Of a stretch of 64,000 bases of DNA, positions 5,571-16,367 are shown in pieces (position 1 is the stretch's first letter; every line of letters begins with the position of its first letter). The position numbers and the translations under genes are program-made. The stretch is taken from the NCBI GenBank assembly GCA_003247575.1, contig QJZC01000040.1, forward strand, positions 1 through 64,000, written 5' to 3'. Source of the DNA: Pseudomonadota bacterium (GTDB lineage: Bacteria; Myxococcota_A; UBA9160; SZUA-336). Under the pieces are notes generated by a model, which saw only the letters and a program-made list of their open reading frames with translations, was not told where the DNA came from and made no database searches.

Positions 5571-6431
5571 ATGAGCGGGCAGATCGAGAGGCTCGAGCCG
5601 CGAGAGCTCAGACTCGGCGACATTCTCATGTGCCGAGGGAGTGCGCGCCTGGGCTCCACGATCTCCGAGTGGATCTGTGCACTCGATGGGGGCCGCTACT
5701 CCCATGCGGCGCTCTGGGACGGCGAAGCCGTACTGGAAGCCTCAGGAAGCGGGGGGAAGGTCCGGGCTGCCGACCTCGGTGAGCTGATTGCGGAGCACGA
5801 GTACACGCATGTCCATCGGTTCCGGACGGGGGCGACGGGCGGCGAGCCACCTCTCGACCTCGCCCCTGTGATCGAGGTCGCGCGCGCGCGTATCGGTGCG
5901 GGCTATCCCTACGCGGAGCTCTGTCTGCTGGGAGTTCTCATCGGGCTCGGGCGTACGACCGGCCTTCCCTGTCTACAGGAGTTGTTGCGCACGCGCGGAG
6001 CCACCCTCGCGCAGGCGCTGCGAGAGCTGAAGCAACATGTGCGCTCCGAGTTGCCGATGACCTGCTCGCAGCTGATCGGCATGGCGTTCTGGGAGGCGGA
6101 TCCGAGCCCTGCACGCCGCTATGCCCTCGAGGTTCCGTACCGAGCGTTTCCGGTCTGGCGCAGTGCGCATGCGCTCGAGCTGTCGAGCTCCGACCGCGAG
6201 CAACTTCGCGCGCTGCGAGAGTTGGCTCGCGATGTCCTCATCCCCGAGCCAGCACGCACGCGGCCCGGCTGGAGTCGGGAGCTCGCTCGGGGGGCTCGGA
6301 CGGTGCGGTCGCTGGGAATCGAAACGGAGCTCGTGCGAGCGGGCGATGGGAAGCTCCCGAATATCTGTGTCACTCCCCGCGATCTCGAGTGTAGCCCGAG
6401 CCTGACGTGCGTAGGTGAACTCCGAGCCTAG
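5571..6431 (+). CDS. permuted papain-like (YiiX/NlpC-P60 superfamily) protein
   Basis: 286 aa. 'LGDILMCRGSARLG' opens the domain, followed by the catalytic-His strand GGRYSHAALWDGE (residues ~40-52) and, about 110 residues later, the catalytic-Cys helix 'PMTCSQLIGMAFWEA'. The His-before-Cys order is the hallmark of the circularly permuted NlpC/P60 group (YiiX/YebB, LRAT-like), whose members cleave amide or thioester/acyl bonds in cell wall or lipid substrates. There is no signal peptide or membrane segment, which argues against periplasmic peptidoglycan cleavage and leaves an intracellular amidase or acyltransferase role open. The last ~80 residues are Arg/Glu-rich and unrecognised. Confidence 0.75.
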   Translation: MSGQIERLEPRELRLGDILMCRGSARLGSTISEWICALDGGRYSHAALWDGEAVLEASGSGGKVRAADLGELIAEHEYTHVHRFRTGATGGEPPLDLAPVIEVARARIGAGYPYAELCLLGVLIGLGRTTGLPCLQELLRTRGATLAQALRELKQHVRSELPMTCSQLIGMAFWEADPSPARRYALEVPYRAFPVWRSAHALELSSSDREQLRALRELARDVLIPEPARTRPGWSRELARGARTVRSLGIETELVRAGDGKLPNICVTPRDLECSPSLTCVGELRA

Positions 6432-6608
6432 CCAGCGGCAAGTTCTGGAGCCCGAAGGTCTGGGATTCGTGCGGCGAGCTAGGCGAGGTCCGATCCTGGA
6501 GACGCCGGCCGGGCGCCCCGCGCGCCGTCCCTCCGCTCCATGATAACTTCGGCTCTAGCTATCCCCGGTGTGTGAGTTCTGCGAGTGAGTTCTGGGGAGG
6601 GAGGGCGC

Positions 6609-7940
6609 TTGAAGTTCGATGGGGAGAAGTGTCGCCGCTTGCGCGAGCAGCTGGGGCTGACGCGCGAGGAGCTTGGGGCTCGCTCGCGCTGCCATGCGCG
6701 GACGATCTACAACGCGGAGAAGGGACTGCGGCAGCCGCGTGGCTTCATTCTCAAGAATCTGGCCCTGGCCCTGGGCTGTGCGCCCCACGATCTGATGGTG
6801 GCCGATTCGGCCGCCGCATCTGCCCCCGGCCCGGTCCCCTCGGTGCAGGACCCCGAGGGCGCGGCCGATCTGGCCTCCCCCTCGGACGACGACATCCGCC
6901 GCACCCTGGCCGAAGCCGTAGAGTTCCGTCAGCTCATCGAAATGGAGGAGCTGGGAGAGCTCTACAAGGATCGCGGCCTGTTGAAGCGCGCCGTCGAGTG
7001 CTGTGAGCTCGTGCGGCAGCGCACGCGTACCTTGCGAGGTGCCGAGGATCGGCACCTCCGTGTGGCCGCATCGTTGCGCCTGGCGGTCGTCATCTCTTAT
7101 CGAGCAGAGCTCTCTCGGGCCGTCGAGCTGCTCCAGGAAGCACTGGCTGACGCCAGAGAGTTGGAAGACCGATCGGCGGAGTGCTTTGCTCTCCGCCAGC
7201 TCGGGGTGACCTTGAATCTGGCCGGCGAGTTGCGTGCGTCGAGTAGGTATGTGGCCGAGAGCTTGGCACTCGCCCGCCGGCTCGGAGATCGGTCGAGCGA
7301 GGCTCGCGCGCTGGTGGCGCTCGCCGGTGTGACTCGCGCTCTCGGTGACCCCAAGCGATCTCGCGACCTGGCGGAGAGCGCGCGAGACTTGGCCGGTCGC
7401 ATGGAAGCCGTCCGAGATGTACTGCATGCGGAGATCACGCTCGTCTTCACCTACACCGATCTGGGTGAGCTCGATTCTGCCGCTGACTACTTTGCCAGCG
7501 CACTCGAGCGGGCGAGAGAGCTGCGCGACCGTCGCGGAGAGGGGCAGGCGTTCGGGGGAGGCGCCGTCGTTGCCTACGCGCGCGGCGACCTCGATTCCGC
7601 CGAGGAGCGCTCGGCTCAGGCGCTCACGATCGGACGCGACATCGGCGACCGGTATCTCGAGTCGTGGGCGCTGGGTACGGCGGCGGCGGTCCGACGGCGC
7701 AGAGGCGACGACGCGGGCGCTCAGACGCTGTATGAGAGCTGGCTCGAGCATGCGCGCAGCATCGGCGATCGGAGAGGCGAAGCTGCCGCTAGCTGGCTAA
7801 TCGGGTCGTTGCATGCCGCATCTGGCCGGTCGTCCGACGCGGCTGCGGCACTGCGCTTCTGCGTGCTCTACGAGGAGGAGATGGGGCACCCTCGCGCCGC
7901 GTCACATCGAGCACGGCTCCACTCCCTCGAGGTGAGGTAG
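6609..7940 (+). CDS. XRE-type HTH regulator with TPR array
   Basis: About 443 aa. An N-terminal Cro/XRE helix-turn-helix ('CRRLREQLGLTREELGARS..ARTIYNAEKGLRQPR', ~65 residues) is followed by a Pro/Ala linker and then tetratricopeptide repeats filling the remaining ~330 residues (periodic 'A..L..LG......A......A...A' helices). This is the layout of peptide- or protein-sensing one-component regulators and of HTH-TPR proteins that control neighbouring accessory genes. The TTG at 6609 has a strong GGGAGGGAGGG just upstream; a GTG at 6585 would add eight residues. It is followed by a 400-bp regulatory region and then the CHAT gene on the same strand, so that region is its most obvious target. Confidence 0.8.
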   Translation: MKFDGEKCRRLREQLGLTREELGARSRCHARTIYNAEKGLRQPRGFILKNLALALGCAPHDLMVADSAAASAPGPVPSVQDPEGAADLASPSDDDIRRTLAEAVEFRQLIEMEELGELYKDRGLLKRAVECCELVRQRTRTLRGAEDRHLRVAASLRLAVVISYRAELSRAVELLQEALADARELEDRSAECFALRQLGVTLNLAGELRASSRYVAESLALARRLGDRSSEARALVALAGVTRALGDPKRSRDLAESARDLAGRMEAVRDVLHAEITLVFTYTDLGELDSAADYFASALERARELRDRRGEGQAFGGGAVVAYARGDLDSAEERSAQALTIGRDIGDRYLESWALGTAAAVRRRRGDDAGAQTLYESWLEHARSIGDRRGEAAASWLIGSLHAASGRSSDAAAALRFCVLYEEEMGHPRAASHRARLHSLEVR

Positions 7941-8341
7941 TCCTCCCCCTGCGGGCGATTCTTCTTTTTTGGTGATTCCCTGCGTGCAGAGGGAGTCTCT
8001 TGTCATTTTTCGAGTCAAGTCTCTCAAGTTGTCATGATCTTTCAGTTGACTTGTCACTCTGGAATTCTGGTTCTGTAAAGGTGTCCAGGCTGGGTGACTC
8101 CTGGGAGTGTCCCGCCTCCGCGAGCATGCGGGCGGACATTTCGTACGAGGAAGGCTCGTGCTGCGGGGTGCGTCGTTTCATCTCCGAATTGCTAGCACCC
8201 CACCTGCTTCATTGGCGCCATCCATGCAAAGACATTTGGGGGGGCGACCGGTAGAATCGACTTGGGGGCCGATCCAGGGCGACACAGATCGGCTGTCAGT
8301 GGTTTGCGAGTCTGGGGAGCGGATCAGCGTGAGGGGACACA
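7941..8341 (+). promoter_or_regulatory. 400-bp AT-richer intergenic region with repeated TTGTCA motifs, upstream of the CHAT gene
   Basis: No credible gene. The stretch 7960-8090 is noticeably lower in GC than its surroundings and carries TTGTCA at 8000-8005, 8029-8034 and 8051-8056, with TTGACTTGTCA around 8046-8056 and an opposite-facing GAGTCAAG at 8012. This looks like a promoter/operator region, plausibly for the upstream HTH-TPR protein, but no -10/-35 pair can be assigned confidently. GAGGGG six bases before the ATG at 8342 is the ribosome binding site of the CHAT gene. Confidence 0.4.
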
Positions 8342-9658
8342 ATGTTGTGGACTCACGTCGGGGAACACCCAGCGGGATACGGTGCGATGCAATCGAAGCT
8401 GGTTTGCCCTACAAGGCCGATCGGGCGAGGTGAGCGTCTTCGCGTCCTGCACATTTGGGCGGACCCCCCTACGCTTCAGTGTACAGCTGCTGCGGTCGAA
8501 GTGGCTGCGCTCAAGTTTGCACTCGATCCCTATGTTCACGCAATCGAGTATCGCGACATACCCGCCTGTACGCGCGAGGATCTGCTTCGCGCGCTGAACG
8601 CCTTTCACCCACACGTCCTGCACTTCAGTGGTCACGGCGACGTCAATGGCGGGATCACCTTGGTGAACCCGCAGACGGGTGATCCGTCGATCCTGTCCAA
8701 AGGTGATCTATCGCGTCTTCTGAGGCATCGAGGCTACCCCTTTCTTCTGGTGCTCAATTGCTGTCACGGCCTGGTGGAAGCTGACGAACTGGCTGGAGTA
8801 ATCGAAGCGGTCATAGGTGTGTCCTCTTCGGTCGCCGAGCCCTATCCCATCGCCTTTTCCTGTGCCCTCTATGATTCGATTGCCGGCGGGCTCTCACTCG
8901 TGTCCGCGCTGGACTGTGCGGTGACGGCTGCGAATGAACGCCGCTCCGGTGACGAGTGTGCGGCCTTCGAGCTATGGGTCAGTCCGATTCCGATGCAGTC
9001 TGTGGATGAAGGTCTGGTCGGAAACCGTCGGGGAACAGGCCGAGATCGGGCATCGCTCGCATTCTGTGTCGCGGTCGCGCTCTCTGCCTTGGTGTTTGTT
9101 TGCGGAGTTCCGTTCGTCTATCAGAGTGCTCCGCCGCTGTTCAAGCCGGGAGCGCTGATCGCGTGGTTTGCCGCAGTCACGATTGCGGTCGCAGTCGGAA
9201 TCACTGCATATGCGCGCGGAGTGAAATTTGCGTTGGCCCTCGTCTGTCTTGCGGGGGCTTGTGCGAGCATGTCGGTGTACTCCTCATTGTGGCGTGAGAC
9301 GACGGTTCCTGTACCTGATTATCCTGGATCGGTGCTTCAAGTCGGGTTTGGTCTGTATCGTTGGTCGCTCACGCCCGAGGCTATCCGCTACGCGCAGTCT
9401 GGGAGGATCTGTACGGCGAGGGAGCTGGTCGAATGGACGACGTACGATCAATCAGCGATCGAGCGTGGCTGGAGACCCTGGACGATTCATGCGGCATCGC
9501 TCTGTCTTCTCGGTGCTTTGACCTTGGGTCTGACTCTCGCCTGCTGCGGTATTGCGCTCGCGATTGCGGTCCTGGCGTCGCGTGGCTGGGCAATCCGGCA
9601 GCATGACTTCGTCGGGAGTGGAATGCAGGCCGATCCGCCGCGGCTCCGGTGCTCATGA
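8342..9658 (+). CDS. CHAT-domain caspase-like protease fused to a multi-pass membrane domain
   Basis: 438 aa. Residues ~33-215 form a CHAT (caspase HetF-associated with TPR) protease core: 'RLRVLHIWADPP', the catalytic-His motif LHFSGHGD (His about 98), 'LSKGDLSRLL', and the catalytic-Cys strand FLLVLNCCHG (Cys140/141). After residue ~235 come four strongly hydrophobic segments (~238-260, 270-290, 294-314, 384-412), with a loop of ~70 residues between the third and fourth. The protease end should face the cytoplasm by the positive-inside rule. CHAT proteases are known in programmed cell death and defence (gasdermin-activating proteases, Craspase). A CHAT domain tethered to its own membrane bundle suggests a self-contained membrane-acting effector. 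The stop overlaps the next ATG (ATGA). Confidence 0.8.
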   Translation: MLWTHVGEHPAGYGAMQSKLVCPTRPIGRGERLRVLHIWADPPTLQCTAAAVEVAALKFALDPYVHAIEYRDIPACTREDLLRALNAFHPHVLHFSGHGDVNGGITLVNPQTGDPSILSKGDLSRLLRHRGYPFLLVLNCCHGLVEADELAGVIEAVIGVSSSVAEPYPIAFSCALYDSIAGGLSLVSALDCAVTAANERRSGDECAAFELWVSPIPMQSVDEGLVGNRRGTGRDRASLAFCVAVALSALVFVCGVPFVYQSAPPLFKPGALIAWFAAVTIAVAVGITAYARGVKFALALVCLAGACASMSVYSSLWRETTVPVPDYPGSVLQVGFGLYRWSLTPEAIRYAQSGRICTARELVEWTTYDQSAIERGWRPWTIHAASLCLLGALTLGLTLACCGIALAIAVLASRGWAIRQHDFVGSGMQADPPRLRCS

Positions 9659-10077
9659 AGAGCAGGTGGGCACTGCTGCTCCGGCTCGTGGGGGGCGGTA
9701 CGATCGGAGCGATCCTTGGGGCATTCGCCTGTGCCACGGTACCCGCGCTCCCTGCGAGGATGGCGAACGACTCCGAAGCGCGCGCGATCCGTACGGATAT
9801 GGCCCACGAGGGTGCCCCAGGTTTTACGGCCCAGGTTTGCTTTCGAACGCCCGAGCCTGGCGCAAAGGTCACGGTTCGCTCTGTATCTGCAGAGCGTGCC
9901 ATCGTGCTCGGCTATACAAACAGTCCGGAGGCTGCTGTGCTCACCTTGGGCTTGTACGATGTCTGGACCGAGCGCGATGGTCGTGTCACGGACTTGCGCG
10001 AGTCTTACCCGGTGACGCAGCGTTCCCTGGTGATCGATCTCGAAGGGGACACGAGTCGCATCGCTCGATGCAACTGA
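9655..10077 (+). CDS. small membrane-anchored or secreted protein, partner of the CHAT gene
   Basis: 140 aa. N-terminal Lys/Arg then a hydrophobic stretch ending LGAFACATVPALPA: an uncleaved anchor, a signal peptide, or a weak lipobox (AFAC). The mature part (~100 aa) is beta-rich ('GFTAQVCFRTPEPGAKVTVRSV', 'ERAIVLGYTNSPEAAVLTLG', 'RSLVIDLEGDTSRIARC') with two Cys, and looks like a small beta-sandwich. The ATG at 9655 overlaps the CHAT stop, so it is translationally coupled. No family recognised. It may be a substrate, sensor or immunity partner of the CHAT protease; this is inference from coupling only. Confidence 0.65.
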   Translation: MKSRWALLLRLVGGGTIGAILGAFACATVPALPARMANDSEARAIRTDMAHEGAPGFTAQVCFRTPEPGAKVTVRSVSAERAIVLGYTNSPEAAVLTLGLYDVWTERDGRVTDLRESYPVTQRSLVIDLEGDTSRIARCN

Positions 10078-10225
10078 CCCAGGTGCATCCCCGAAGGTGC
10101 TCGAGTCTCATCCCCCGGCCGCTGGCTAAAGCTCGACCCCACGCAGCGCTTGAGCTTCCTGGCGGTGCCGTGCGAGACTCGCTGCCGCCGGCGTGTCAGG
10201 TTCGGGCGGATGGGGAGGTAGGATC

Positions 10226-11206
10226 GTGCGAGACCGGGCGTCCTCTGAGGGCAGGTTCAACTACCTTGCGGACTCCGTCGCGCACTCGCTCGTTCGCAAT
10301 GGCCGCGTGCTGACGAGGCGAGATCACGATGGTCGCGATGCCGGGACCGAGGGGGTCGTGATCGATCGACGCGAGCTCTGCGTCCTCGACGCACGCGCTT
10401 GCGATGCTGCGTCGCTTCCGACCTTGGCGCAGCACGGCTTCGAGCAGCACACCCACCGCCTGGTTCGAAGAGACCTGGATTTTCTCCGTCATGAGCCCGT
10501 CGTGCGCGAGTACTATCCTGAGTGCGCCGCGTTCCTGCGCGAAGTTACCGGTGCGGCACACGTGTACGCGTTCGACCACAATGTGCGCTCAGCGCAGGGG
10601 ACGCGGAGCGAGACCCGGATCATCGGAGGCCAGCAGGTCCAGCCGCCAGCGCACATCGTGCATGGTGACTACACGTTGACCAGCGCCCCACAGCGCCTGC
10701 GCGACCTCGGTGCTCCGCCTGGGGCGAACGACACGCTGCGCTCCTTTCTGGGAGATGGTGAGACGGTCGTTCCGCGCGAGCTCGTCGAGCAGGCGTGCGG
10801 GGCGTCCGGGCGGTTTGCGTTGATCAATGTCTGGCGCAACATCGCGCCGGAACCCGTGATGACCCATCCCCTCGCTCTCTGCGACGCTCAGAGCGTATGC
10901 CCACGTGATCTCGTCGTCTTCGAGATCCACTACGCAGACCGAGTCGGTGAGAATTACTTCGCAAAGTATGCCCCGGAGCATCGCTGGTACTTCTATCCGG
11001 AGCTGACACGGGACGAAGTGCTATTGATCAAGCAGTGGGACTCGGCTGGAATGCTGGCGCAATCGGCGGGCGAGCTCGCGGACGCCAGTTCCCCCGGGGC
11101 GCCCTGCACTTTCAGCTTCCACAGCGCCTTCCGAGATCCAGCGACACCGCCTTCGGCTCCGGATCGGTGGAGTATCGAGGTGCGCTGCCTGCTGATCTAC
11201 GCCTGA
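10226..11206 (+). CDS. CmcJ/NvfI-family (AsaB-like) Fe(II)/2-oxoglutarate-type oxidoreductase
   Basis: 326 aa. The chain follows the CmcJ/NvfI pattern: 'YAFDHNVRS', 'PAHIVHGDYT' (candidate metal-binding HxD), a central 'FALINVWRNI..EPVMTHPLALCDA', 'DLVVFEIHY', 'HRWYFYPELTRDEVLLIKQWDS', and a C-terminal 'FSFHSAF.DP..PPSAPDRWSIEVR' with the second His and the Arg that binds the co-substrate carboxylate. Relatives act in cephamycin (CmcJ), fungal meroterpenoid and gibberellin pathways as hydroxylases or desaturases. The substrate here is unknown. GGGGAGGT precedes the GTG at 10226 by a good distance, better than the GTG at 10193. It stands about 150 bp after the CHAT pair and may be independent. 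Confidence 0.75.
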   Translation: MRDRASSEGRFNYLADSVAHSLVRNGRVLTRRDHDGRDAGTEGVVIDRRELCVLDARACDAASLPTLAQHGFEQHTHRLVRRDLDFLRHEPVVREYYPECAAFLREVTGAAHVYAFDHNVRSAQGTRSETRIIGGQQVQPPAHIVHGDYTLTSAPQRLRDLGAPPGANDTLRSFLGDGETVVPRELVEQACGASGRFALINVWRNIAPEPVMTHPLALCDAQSVCPRDLVVFEIHYADRVGENYFAKYAPEHRWYFYPELTRDEVLLIKQWDSAGMLAQSAGELADASSPGAPCTFSFHSAFRDPATPPSAPDRWSIEVRCLLIYA

Positions 11207-12682: not shown

Positions 12683-13577
12683 CCCGCTCCTGTCCTGATT
12701 GGTCTTTCGTCATCTTGCTCGATGCAGCTCTGATTGTATTGCGGAGCGCGCCGAACTCGCACGAGCGATTCCCATCCCGGTCGATGGTCTTCACGCTCCT
12801 TCACGACCCGTGACCGAGCCTCGGTCCATTGCAGGAAGCAAGCCACCGCAGCGTTTCGGCCTCGAGTCGCGTGGGCAGTACCCACTTCCAGGGAAGAGCA
12901 CGAGGACTTTCCGGGCAGATGGACGGGCCCCTTGCTCGGGGATAGAGACTGAGACTTGCGGCCAAGAATTGAGACCCAGTTGGTAGGTCTAGCGCTTTCC
13001 GCGATCGGGGAGCATCGGAGAGCATGTGCCGCTCTCTCCGCGCTGGCGCCGGGAACGTTCGCGGTAGCGGCAGGGCTGAGATCCTCGGGAAGTGGGTTCA
13101 CGGACAGAGGATGGTTGACTGCAAACAAATGTCGGTTGAGATCGTTCTGGTTCTCGTTGAAAAAAGGGACTAAATCTAGAATTGCGCAGCTCGTCGAACA
13201 GGCGTGTCGCCTGGCCTCCAAATCCCAGCGTTTCTGCGCCTGGATGAAGCTACTGGAACTTCCCATTTGCGACTTTCCGTCCCGAATATTTATGAAATGT
13301 CACACTGAACTGTTTCGAGCTTCGAGAGAACGAGACATTCGGAGCCTGTAGCAGTGCGCGTTGGGAGTCGAGCTGCACGCAGGAGGGTCTTCGTGGAGTA
13401 GGCATCTGTCTTGCTGATGTTGAGCGAGTGCCGCGTCGTCGGCCGCTATGGATGTAGTACGGGAAGGAGTTGGAGCTCTAGGGGGCTTGAGCAAAGGGCT
13501 GCGGGCCGGAGCTTGGAGCACGCGCCACTGTGTCGCCTACAAGCTCGGCCAGAGGCATTGGGCCCGACCACTGGGCG
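12683..13577. promoter_or_regulatory. 895-bp divergent intergenic region (porin / cytochrome operon)
   Basis: No convincing gene on either strand; long frames here are uninterrupted only because of GC bias and lack family features. Two AT-richer pockets, around 13157-13185 (TTGAAAAAAGGGACTAAATC) and 13285-13310 (AATATTTATGAAATGTCACA), are the best places for promoters. The latter includes TGAAATGTCACA, reminiscent of half of a CRP/FNR-family site. The length is unusual in this otherwise dense window, so a small RNA or decayed gene remains possible. Confidence 0.35.
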
Positions 13578-14624
13578 ATGCGAATGAGGAAACCTGAGGT
13601 TCATTCAGACGCCGGGGCGCGGGGGCGAGTGGGATGGGAATCTGCATTCTTGGCAGTCGTAAGGTGCTGCTTCCTCTTCGCTTTGCTGGTGGTGGGGATG
13701 GCAACCCGCGTTACCCGAGCCGAAGACTCCCGAGCCGAAGGGGGAGCGCTCAGCCCGGAGATGCTCGCCGAGATCTCTCGTGCGAACGCGATCTGCCTCG
13801 ACTGCCATTCCCTCGTGGGCCTGGAGCTGCGGCTCCAGGAGCTCCGTACATTGGAGTTCTCTCTCGAGCGAGCTGAGGAGCTCCTGGTGGAGCCTGGTGC
13901 TTTCGAGCTGTCCAGTCATGGTGAGATGAAGTGTGTCAGCTGCCACGTGAAGGGGTTCGATGAGCACCCGCACGACTCGGAAGCTCGCGAGGAGATCAAG
14001 TGGTGCGACGATTGCCACACGCGCGCGTTTCTGGTCATCGAGGAGCAGTTCTTCGATAGTGTGCACGCTCGGCAGTTCGAGAAAGGGTTCAGCTGCTCGA
14101 CATGCCATGATCCTCATAGGTTTCTATCACGTGACCAGCAGCCTAGCGCGCGTGCTGCGGTGAACCAGGACAATGCAATGTGCCTGACGTGCCACGAGGA
14201 TTCGGGCGCGAGTCATGAGCTCGCGCCTCAGTCGCGGCAGCCCTTGAGGTCGGTTTCGCATGCGTGGCTGCCCAATCCCGATCTTCATTGGGAAGCAGCG
14301 CGCTGTGTCGAATGTCACGTGAATGCCGAAGGAAAGCTGTTGTCTCACGAAATCGTGGATTCCGAACGTGCGAAGCGGGAATGCGTAGCATGCCACAGTT
14401 CCGAAGCGGATCTGCTCGTGCGATTGTACAAGCATCGAGTGGGCGAAGAGCGTGAGAGCGCCGGATTCATGAATAGCATCATATTGAATGAAAGCTACAT
14501 CGTCGGTGCGACGCGAAACCAAGTTTTGGACGAGCTCAGTGTCCTGTTCGCCGTCCTCGTCTTGTCGATGTTCTCTTCGCACGCGCTCGTTCGCGTCGCT
14601 CGATGGGGGTGGAGGCAGCGATGA
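13578..14624 (+). CDS. heptahaem c-type cytochrome with C-terminal membrane anchor
   Basis: 348 aa from the ATG at 13578 (a longer GTG-initiated frame begins at 13530). After an N-terminal hydrophobic export segment (FLAVVRCCFLFALLVVGM) there are seven CxxCH haem sites: CLDCH, CVSCH, CDDCH, CSTCH, CLTCH, CVECH and CVACH, evenly spaced over ~250 residues. A single hydrophobic helix near the C-terminus (ELSVLFAVLVLSMFSSHAL) ends with basic residues, so the haem domain is periplasmic and anchored at its C-terminus. Related architectures feed electrons to or from a membrane cytochrome b. The stop overlaps the ATG of exactly such a gene (ATGA). Seven-haem arrangement matches no named reductase that I can identify. 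Confidence 0.85.
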   Translation: MRMRKPEVHSDAGARGRVGWESAFLAVVRCCFLFALLVVGMATRVTRAEDSRAEGGALSPEMLAEISRANAICLDCHSLVGLELRLQELRTLEFSLERAEELLVEPGAFELSSHGEMKCVSCHVKGFDEHPHDSEAREEIKWCDDCHTRAFLVIEEQFFDSVHARQFEKGFSCSTCHDPHRFLSRDQQPSARAAVNQDNAMCLTCHEDSGASHELAPQSRQPLRSVSHAWLPNPDLHWEAARCVECHVNAEGKLLSHEIVDSERAKRECVACHSSEADLLVRLYKHRVGEERESAGFMNSIILNESYIVGATRNQVLDELSVLFAVLVLSMFSSHALVRVARWGWRQR

Positions 14625-15343
14625 GTCACGGGGCATACCTGTATCCGATCTGGCTTCGGATCTGGCATCTAGTGAACGCACTGCTGATGCTGGCCTTGAT
14701 CGGGACTGGGATCAGTCTGCACTTCGCTAGCTCGAGCTTTGCGCTCCTTCGTTTCGAGCATGCGGTGACTGTGCACAATGTCGCCGGCCTGGGGCTGGCT
14801 CTGAGCTACGCATACTTCCTTGTCGGTAGCCTCGTGTCTGGGAATCTCCGACACTATATTCCGAAGCGCGCGGCGTTGTTCGGGAAGCTTCGCTCTCAGG
14901 TGTGGTTCTTCTGTGTCGGATCGCTTCTCGGCGAAGGGCCTCCGCATGTCCCTTCGATGGAGAGTAAGTTCAACGTCCTCCAGCAGGTCACGTATCTACT
15001 CGTGATGTTCCTTGCGATGCCGCTCTTGATAGGTTCCGGGATCCTATTTCTGTTTCCAGAGCTTGCGCCGGAGAAGGTGATGGGCATGTCTGGACTGCTT
15101 CCCGTTGCGGTTCTGCACTGTGTAATCGGATATCTGCTTACGTTGTTTCTTGTAGGCCACATCTATCTGGCCACGTTTGGAGCTTCGCTCGCGGAGCACT
15201 TTCGAGCAATTTCCACGGGATGGCACGTGAGCCCGCCAGAGCGCGAGTGGGCGCTGGCTTCATCGCGGGCGACAGCATCGAAAATGAGGCCGAATTCGGC
15301 TGAGGAGGTAGCAGATGAAGGGGTTGGAGGTGCGACGGAGTAG
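14621..15343 (+). CDS. cytochrome b (FdhI / thiosulfate-reductase gamma-like)
   Basis: 240 aa integral membrane protein with about five hydrophobic segments. Candidate haem-b ligands are His in 'LRIWHLVNALLMLALIGTG', 'FEHAVTVHN', and 'VLHCVIGYLLTLFLVGHIYL', an arrangement seen in the b-type subunits of formate dehydrogenase, Ni-Fe hydrogenase and thiosulfate reductase. These move electrons between the quinone pool and a periplasmic partner, here the heptahaem cytochrome. The ATG at 14621 overlaps the upstream stop by four bases. The last 29 bp overlap the next gene. The C-terminal ~45 residues are polar and cytoplasmic. Confidence 0.85.
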   Translation: MSHGAYLYPIWLRIWHLVNALLMLALIGTGISLHFASSSFALLRFEHAVTVHNVAGLGLALSYAYFLVGSLVSGNLRHYIPKRAALFGKLRSQVWFFCVGSLLGEGPPHVPSMESKFNVLQQVTYLLVMFLAMPLLIGSGILFLFPELAPEKVMGMSGLLPVAVLHCVIGYLLTLFLVGHIYLATFGASLAEHFRAISTGWHVSPPEREWALASSRATASKMRPNSAEEVADEGVGGATE

Positions 15344-16367
15344 AGTCGTTTGGGCCGTCGCTTGTGGGGCTTGGGCGGCGGTTCTACTCGGGAACGAGGT
15401 GCACGCAGAATCTCTGGTTACGGCCAAGAAGGCGACCGCGGCGCCCAAGCTCGATGGAGTCGCTGATGACGCGGTCTGGAAGAGTGCTACGGGAGCAGAG
15501 GTGAGTGCCGTCGACGGTGCGAACTTCGGTGGCACTGGGAAGACGACTGGAAGTGTGAAGGCTGCCTATATGGGCGACATGCTATATCTGCTGATTCAGT
15601 GGAAGGATGCCACCCTGAGCCTTCAGCGAAGTCCCTGGGCCAAGCAGGCGGATGGATCCTGGACGCAGCTGAAGGATGCCGAGGATAAGGGTGGTGACAA
15701 CAACAAGTACTACGAAGACAAAGCAGCCCTGATCTGGTCGATCGATGACTCGATCTTCGGATTCGAGCGGAGAGGTTGCCAGATGAGTTGCCACTCAGGC
15801 CAGCCTGGAAAGCCGTTCGGGAACAAGTACAGCGAGGAAGAATCGGAGCTGGGGGATATCTGGCATATCAAGAACGTTCGCACGAGTCCCGTGGGCATGG
15901 TTGACGATCAATATCTCGACAATACTCGCTACGACCCCAAGAAGTCGCCGTCGGCTGGGCGGCACACCGACCCAGGGGGGGGTGGGTATTCCGACATCGT
16001 GCTGAAGGACGGGGTGCCCGAGCTCATGCACAAAGATGCCACTGCTGCCAATCGGGGCGGTACCTATTGGCTGGCGAAGCAAGATGCTGTTCCCTTCGAT
16101 GATTCCAAGTTCAAGCCGGGTGACGAGGTTGCTGCGATCGCCATCGCGCCACTCGAGGGGGATCGGGGCGATATTCGGGCCGGAGCCCGCTGGAACGAGG
16201 GGACGTGGACGGTCGAGATCGCACGCAAGCTCGAGACGGGCAGCGACAAGGACGTGCAATTCAGCGATTTGACGAAGGCGTATCCTTTCGGAGTCGCGTT
16301 CTTCGACAACGCACAGGTGCGGCACGCCGTCGTCGAGGATCCACTCAAACTGGTCTTCGAGAAGTAG
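15315..16367 (+). CDS. ethylbenzene-dehydrogenase-type haem-binding protein
   Basis: 350 aa. A signal peptide (VVWAVACGAWAAVLLGNEVHA) precedes an EB_dh fold: 'APKLDGVADDAVWKSA', 'AAYMGDMLYLLIQWKDAT', 'DKAALIWSIDDSIFGFERRGC', and 'EVAAIAIAPLEGDRGDIRAGARWNEGTWTVEIARKLETG'. EbdC-like domains hold a b-type haem between a Met and a Lys and pass electrons from a molybdoenzyme. Here GCQMSCHSG gives a C-X3-CH, common in stand-alone EB_dh cytochromes but not a canonical haem-c site. GGAGG precedes the ATG by a good distance, and it overlaps the cytochrome b gene. No molybdopterin subunit is present in the window. Confidence 0.85.
   Translation: MKGLEVRRSRVVWAVACGAWAAVLLGNEVHAESLVTAKKATAAPKLDGVADDAVWKSATGAEVSAVDGANFGGTGKTTGSVKAAYMGDMLYLLIQWKDATLSLQRSPWAKQADGSWTQLKDAEDKGGDNNKYYEDKAALIWSIDDSIFGFERRGCQMSCHSGQPGKPFGNKYSEEESELGDIWHIKNVRTSPVGMVDDQYLDNTRYDPKKSPSAGRHTDPGGGGYSDIVLKDGVPELMHKDATAANRGGTYWLAKQDAVPFDDSKFKPGDEVAAIAIAPLEGDRGDIRAGARWNEGTWTVEIARKLETGSDKDVQFSDLTKAYPFGVAFFDNAQVRHAVVEDPLKLVFEK

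Follow-up and report, generated by a model that had tools for sequence, protein, structure and literature searches.

A CHAT protease gene with a predicted four-helix membrane anchor overlaps the gene for a predicted exported protein

Results

Organization of the locus

The window, by which we mean the whole analyzed stretch of 64,000 nucleotides, contains a row of four genes encoding a C92-like amidase, an HTH-TPR regulator, a CHAT protease with four transmembrane (TM) helices, and a small protein with an N-terminal signal or anchor that we call P2. The features of this locus are as follows:

5571..6431, plus strand: C92/YiiX-like permuted papain-fold cysteine amidase with His45 (SHAALW) and Cys165 (PMTCS) (family profile, alignment)
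6585..7940, plus strand: HTH-TPR regulator (HTH_3 plus TPR_12), GTG start provisional (Pfam; in another part of this genome, a relative lies next to a C92-like gene)
7974..7997, plus strand: hairpin, possibly a terminator, behind the HTH-TPR gene (pattern match)
8000..8056, plus strand: three TTGTCA repeats (8000, 8029, 8051), possible operator (motif search of the genome)
8342..9658, plus strand: CHAT protease fused to four TM helices, 438 aa (Pfam, PDB, hydropathy, alignment, AlphaFold2, Foldseek)
8435..8986, plus strand: CHAT domain, residues 32-215 (AlphaFold2 model, Foldseek)
8633..8635, plus strand: codon of catalytic His98 (alignment of CHAT cores)
8762..8764, plus strand: codon of catalytic Cys141 (alignment of CHAT cores)
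9062..9283, plus strand: TM1-TM3, residues 241-314 (hydropathy, positive-inside flanks)
9284..9511, plus strand: predicted periplasmic TM3-TM4 loop, about 70-76 residues (topology inference)
9512..9574, plus strand: TM4, residues 391-411 (hydropathy)
9655..10077, plus strand: P2, 140 aa, with a signal or anchor segment near the N-terminus (about residues 6-34) and a possibly beta-rich periplasmic part (coding frame, low-confidence model)

An earlier note on this DNA had described a CHAT core with His and Cys, four hydrophobic helices behind it, an ATGA-overlapping gene for a 140-aa exported or anchored protein of no known family, an HTH-TPR regulator, and repeated TTGTCA upstream, and our analysis bears out each of these descriptions. 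Its proposal of a protease at the inner membrane, probably an active one, is supported as well. It had missed two features that are treated below: a sister gene of the CHAT-TM-FGE type carried by this genome and the recurrence of the C92-like/HTH-TPR neighbourhood.

The CHAT domain and its active site

The Pfam CHAT family (PF12770) matches residues 48-156 of the 438-aa protein right at its cut-off of 24 bits (E=4.6e-5, 23.4 bits; in a genome search with the same family, the protein reached 24.1 bits, just above that cut-off). The closest solved CHAT by sequence is the SAVED-CHAT structure PDB 8tl0 (E=1.5e-9, or 1.4e-34 with a five-sequence profile). An AlphaFold2 model made from five-sequence input is confident over about residues 31-200 (pLDDT about 75-90), and Foldseek with this model again found 8tl0 first (E=2e-12), followed by caspase-3, -4, and -6 at about 1e-4; model and search together give the domain a caspase/separase-like alpha-beta fold. 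SAVED-CHAT shares the His-Cys dyad with the window protein, which differs in having no match to a SAVED domain and in placing the CHAT domain N-terminally, ahead of the four TM helices.

The conservation of the active site, a point raised by the earlier note, was assessed over 91 aligned CHAT cores. Position 98 is His in 91/91 and position 141 is Cys in 89/91, while the neighbouring Cys140 is Cys in only 4/91; we therefore assign the dyad to H98/C141 and reject Cys140 as the nucleophile. The protein is probably an active protease.

Searching genome contigs with the whole protein returned a single match, a Pyxidicoccus CHAT protein, and no relative was found among viral contigs or phage records. 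A CHAT profile scan found two IMG/VR contigs with CHAT genes; an IMG/VR contig classed as viral (L176:2377-5430) carries two convergent ones. Both the CHAT and the P2 gene score weakly as coding against the local codon model, and their GC3 (0.64 and 0.70, respectively) is below the 0.76-0.77 of the flanking genes, which suggests recent acquisition or low expression.

Predicted topology of the membrane half

Hydropathy places the four helices behind the CHAT domain at about residues 241-260, 271-290, 294-314, and 391-411. The protein has no signal peptide, and its flanks fit an N-in topology: an R-rich stretch ahead of TM1 (LVGNRRGTGRDRASLA), ARGVK between TM2 and TM3, and an R-rich C-terminus. 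Because of these positive-inside flanks, the CHAT domain is predicted to be cytoplasmic and the TM3-TM4 loop, which is charge-balanced, to be periplasmic. The helices match no family and no known transporter family, and none of 379 genomes of the phylum yielded a credible relative of the membrane half. A likeness of the loop to the C-terminal domain of two other CHATs (L079/L078; motif GRIC(T)AR[DE]L) was put down to chance.

P2, the predicted exported partner

The P2 ATG at 9655 overlaps the CHAT stop codon (TGA, 9656-9658) in a 4-base ATGA, an arrangement that predicts translational coupling; the gene could alternatively start from an in-frame GTG (9649). P2 is likely a real gene because its frame is the best-scoring of all six over most of 9655-10000. 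The N-terminus, MKSRWALLLRLVGGGTIGAILGAFACATVPALPA, has the character of a signal or anchor, and the globular part is predicted to be periplasmic. No family was matched in Pfam, PADLOC, or NCBIfam, and the AlphaFold2 model is unreliable (pLDDT 39.6), with hints of an N-terminal helix followed by strands.

The earlier note had inferred a two-gene unit and proposed conserved synteny as a check; at the level of sequence, the search gave the outcome that the note had named as refuting its inference. A CHAT core match (E<=1e-6) is present in 78/379 genomes of the phylum, and throughout this search it occurs elsewhere always without P2. No credible P2 relative was found among 60 relatives, the 379 genomes, or plasmids; matches to the P2 query at E 1e-4 to 1e-2 were short and often ran across stop codons. 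At the level of sequence, then, only the CHAT core is common to other genomes, and P2 and the membrane half of the protease are both orphans in this set.

A sister CHAT with a fused lectin-like domain

The only close relative of the window CHAT is encoded by the same genome (G000:C67), is 45% identical to it across residues 32-215, and is its sister on our tree with support of 100/100. This 1524-aa protein (L005:5125-9696, minus strand) has three TM helices behind its CHAT domain and, at the C-terminus, a domain of the FGE/C-type-lectin-like kind (Pfam FGE E=2.1e-17). A TIR_2-like gene (E=3.7e-5) is found on the same contig at L005:13824-14969. In another genome (G260:C100, L149:3788-7937), two tandem genes appear to encode CHAT, TM, a Cys-rich segment, and an FGE-like domain, the last recognized by eye; they could be a duplicated receptor pair.

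FGE domains have been proposed as invader sensors in conflict systems (PMC8195603), and a CHAT-TIR-CLec protein as well as membrane-spanning CLec proteins have been described as targets of diversity-generating retroelements (PMC10907252). Systems in which CHAT, TIR, or STAND modules carry FGE or CLec sensors, partly diversified by such retroelements, have CHAT+TM+FGE counterparts in the sister gene, in G296:C747 (see below), and probably in the two G260 genes. By contrast, Pfam finds no FGE/CLec domain in the window CHAT protein, which has a separate small protein in that place. With FGE fused after CHAT and TM in other loci, the economical reading is that P2, together with the loop, replaces the FGE domain in the form of a separate sensor or regulator.

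Membrane-anchored CHATs across the phylum

A hydrophobic helix follows the CHAT domain in 48/101 distinct CHAT frames. On the CHAT tree the TM label changes 21 times, with at least 7 changes forced by well-supported branches, so that CHATs seem to have acquired or lost their membrane anchors several times over. The next gene encodes an exported protein for 8/19 CHATs with a TM helix close behind the domain versus 2/52 without TM (Fisher p=2e-4), a count that uses thresholds chosen once the data had been looked at, includes the window, and enters related loci more than once. Examples are a TM-CHAT gene with a short overlap to a gene for a 152-aa TM protein (G260, L079), another followed by an exported or lipoprotein-like gene with overlapping start (G263, L077), and TM-CHATs with an exported gene directly after them (L128/L167 and L133/L162). 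As far as sequence can tell, the design of a TM-CHAT plus exported gene recurs with partners of differing sequence.

Several other loci deserve mention in their own right. L079 and L078 (G260:C31 and G137:C14) have a common operon of a large alpha/beta-hydrolase-like gene, a TM-anchored CHAT with a Cys-rich extracytoplasmic tail, an about 150-aa TM/coiled-coil protein, and a 169-aa exported protein. A four-segment membrane CHAT on the reverse strand of L081 (G267:C220, 2247-3938) has its catalytic Cys replaced (NTD for NAC) and is apparently inactive. An Agrobacterium Ti plasmid (L063, NZ_CP039902.1) carries three CHAT genes together with caspase, TIR, metallophosphoesterase, and winged-HTH genes and resembles a defence/conflict island.

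A recurring C92-like/HTH-TPR neighbourhood

The C92-like gene upstream falls below the cut-off when compared alone to Pfam C92 (E=0.33). Its family profile finds the YiiX/C92 amidase structures PDB 3kw0 (5.3e-6) and YiiX 2if6 (5.4e-4) with the permuted order of His before Cys, and His45 and Cys165 are invariant in 5 relatives. The family differs from YiiX/C92 in its larger size (about 290-330 aa), a conserved C-terminal VTPxDL-like motif, and linkage to HTH-TPR and caspase-fold genes. Within the incomplete portion of the literature covered here, two conflict-system surveys contain no mention of YiiX.

C92-like genes are rare, with 5 places in 3/379 genomes and none on plasmids or viral contigs at the sensitivity used. 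An HTH-TPR gene lies nearby at 4/5 places and a caspase-superfamily gene within about 4 kb at 3/5. Besides the window, the family occurs on a second contig of its own genome (C48, L186), where an HTH-NB-ARC-TPR gene is followed by the C92-like gene and an exported FGE-like gene (FGE by eye; start near L186:8162); this regulator is 35% identical to the HTH-TPR protein of the window over the TPR part and 39% over the HTH. Two further places are in a distant genome, G296. In G296:C747 (L192:1937-8318), a C14 caspase gene, the C92-like gene, and a CHAT-TM-FGE gene stand in a row, the GTG of the last (4279) overlapping the C92-like stop (4289), and an HTH-TPR gene follows about 2.6 kb on, on the opposite strand; no other locus shows the suspected module in so complete a form. 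On G296:C588 (L193), the order is as in the window: C92-like gene, HTH-TPR gene, a short opposite-strand gene, and a C14 caspase. The fifth place (G004) has metabolic surroundings without HTH-TPR or caspase neighbours. The HTH domains of the other four loci, the window among them, have a common short N-terminus containing (F/L/Y)DG. The neighbourhood thus recurs, and a module of C92-like, HTH-TPR, and caspase-fold genes is a lead rather than proven because it is seen at only four loci in two genomes, two of these loci being in the window's own genome.

Intergenic DNA and surroundings

A gap of 401 bp lies between the HTH-TPR and CHAT genes, and the CHAT gene may be transcribed separately. Transcription of the HTH-TPR gene could stop at the hairpin (7974-7997); terminator-type hairpins in the region are not above chance (2 found versus 2.1 expected). 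The spaced TTGTCA triple covers 57 bases between the two genes, occurs once in the 5.8-Mb assembly, and is plausible as a putative operator.

The surroundings of the locus are metabolic and not a defence island. Right after P2 lies a gene for a CmcJ/NvfI-family oxidoreductase (10193-11206; NCBIfam 1.2e-64), and other genomes of the class without a match to the whole CHAT protein carry copies of it with 62% identity. Further on, a multihaem cytochrome c, a cytochrome b561, and an ethylbenzene-dehydrogenase-like gene stand in a row (13530-16367), possibly a respiratory unit.

Discussion

A membrane-spanning conflict-system variant as the preferred reading

The genes themselves, their overlap, the intact dyad, the hydrophobic helices, and the recurring neighbourhood can be read from the DNA, and from these we infer topology, contact between P2 and the protease, trigger, substrate, and outcome. 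The best explanation for the whole, to which we give a probability of roughly 40%, is that the locus is a variant, specific to its lineage and spanning the membrane, of the modular conflict systems of bacteria (immunity or programmed death), in which P2 is a split-off outer sensor and an envelope signal leads to cleavage by the CHAT domain. The separase/caspase-like cysteine protease would be held by its four-helix anchor with the H98/C141 site in the cytoplasm. P2 would be made by translational coupling, exported, and contact the anchor and the periplasmic loop of roughly 70 residues from outside the membrane. It would correspond, as a separate protein, to the lectin-like FGE domain that the same-genome sister CHAT carries fused on its extracytoplasmic side. 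An envelope change sensed by P2, the loop, or both might then be relayed through the helices and switch on the CHAT domain, which would cut a cytoplasmic protein and cause death or dormancy. The upstream C92-like amidase would act as a second hydrolase, and the HTH-TPR protein as controller or sensor, of the same module.

Intact dyad and fold, positive-inside flanks, and the anchor and coding frame of P2 are all consistent with this explanation. The CHAT-TM-FGE sister argues for it, as do the same plan in G296:C747 with its overlapping C92-like gene and twice in tandem in G260, and published conflict systems contain FGE/CLec domains with CHAT and TM (PMC8195603, PMC10907252). The rarity of C92-like genes with HTH-TPR and caspase-superfamily neighbours and the excess of exported genes behind TM-CHATs point the same way. 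Against it stand the orphan status of P2 and of the CHAT membrane half, with a pair that lacks conservation, and the poor P2 model (pLDDT 40). The exported-gene count also has its post hoc thresholds, the neighbourhood comprises four loci in two genomes with G004 as a place without such neighbours, and the 401-bp gap, a possible separate transcript, and the metabolic surroundings weigh on the same side.

Alternative readings

Immunity or programmed death is our preference on grounds of domain company (CHAT, caspase, FGE, and NB-ARC-TPR), and the main alternative, which we consider unlikely, is a HetF-like regulator: a membrane CHAT for cell division, development, or envelope control rather than immunity. 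HetF, the namesake of the CHAT family, has an N-terminal CHAT domain and one TM helix, is part of the cyanobacterial divisome, and binds FtsI (PMC8406250). The window protein is likewise an N-terminal CHAT anchored in the membrane, its best NCBIfam match is HetF (E=7.7e-7), and the surroundings are metabolic. However, it fails the full-length HetF equivalog by far (27.8 bits versus a cut-off of 1200) and has four TM helices, no TPR, and an overlapping exported partner, whereas HetF has one TM helix plus TPRs; an orphan partner and patchy distribution are also unlike a housekeeping gene. The comparison has a further consequence: the earlier note had considered the locus distinct since the protease carries its own membrane part, and this argument falls with the anchoring of HetF and with the 48/101 frames that have a helix.

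The pair might also be incidental, a horizontally acquired stand-alone membrane CHAT followed by an unrelated exported orphan gene. P2 without relatives, CHAT cores that elsewhere always lack it, and atypical codon use in both genes would all suit this idea, which we nonetheless rate as improbable: the 4-base overlap predicts coupled translation, and other TM-CHATs of the phylum also precede exported genes.

Quite improbable is a protease with its target, as the earlier note had suggested for P2, in which the CHAT domain would cut P2 and release a toxic fragment, comparable to Csx29 with Csx30 or CHAT-type proteases with bacterial gasdermins. CHAT substrates are commonly encoded beside the protease (PMC9729208), and overlapping genes suggest a 1:1 partnership. 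Craspase, in which the TPR-CHAT protein Csx29 (dyad H585/C627) works with Csx30 (PMC9729208), resembles the window in combining a CHAT protease with a neighbouring partner gene, but the window CHAT starts at about residue 32 without TPR (by Pfam) and P2 is predicted to be across the membrane. Nor is there a sign of a gasdermin gene beside the protease, P2 having 140 aa and no family match. Since the body of P2 is predicted on the periplasmic side and the active site on the cytoplasmic side, the two could not meet, barring an error in this topology or cleavage of P2 ahead of its export; once P2 is inserted, only some 10 residues at its N-terminus would be within reach. P2 as a direct substrate was demoted on this predicted topology, and its place on the opposite side of the membrane from the CHAT domain makes it more likely a sensor or regulator. 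Least probable is a membrane bundle that is itself the weapon, with the CHAT domain cutting its own linker (about residues 214-240, between CHAT and TM1), the freed helices damaging the membrane, and P2 as antidote or trigger, for although that linker has low confidence in the AlphaFold2 model and the four short helices belong to no known transporter family, they match no family at all, and the G267 four-TM CHAT with its lost Cys implies that such helices can persist without a protease.

Implications

Membrane-anchored CHATs are already known from HetF and are common in this phylum; the combination of a CHAT-TM protease of the window type with P2 is, as far as we checked, unstudied. Returning to the conflict-system reading, the locus could belong to an undescribed module of C92-like amidase, HTH(-NB-ARC)-TPR protein, membrane caspase-superfamily protease, and an exchangeable extracytoplasmic sensor, an extension that we regard as doubtful. 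The part of the sensor could be taken by a lectin-like FGE domain fused to the protease or, alternatively, by an exported protein of its own, as with P2. In the manner of a death-domain receptor, such a module would pass an envelope signal through the inner membrane to its caspase-like protease.

Characterized CHAT immunity proteases respond to cytoplasmic triggers such as guide-RNA targets. Nucleotide messengers are another such trigger. If our reading is true, an inner-membrane CHAT wired to an exported partner would mean that the envelope can drive caspase-like proteolysis in bacteria, comparable to the death receptors of animals. With its C92-like, HTH-TPR, and caspase-fold genes, the recurring neighbourhood offers a concrete pattern with which genomes can be searched to see whether such systems form a class.
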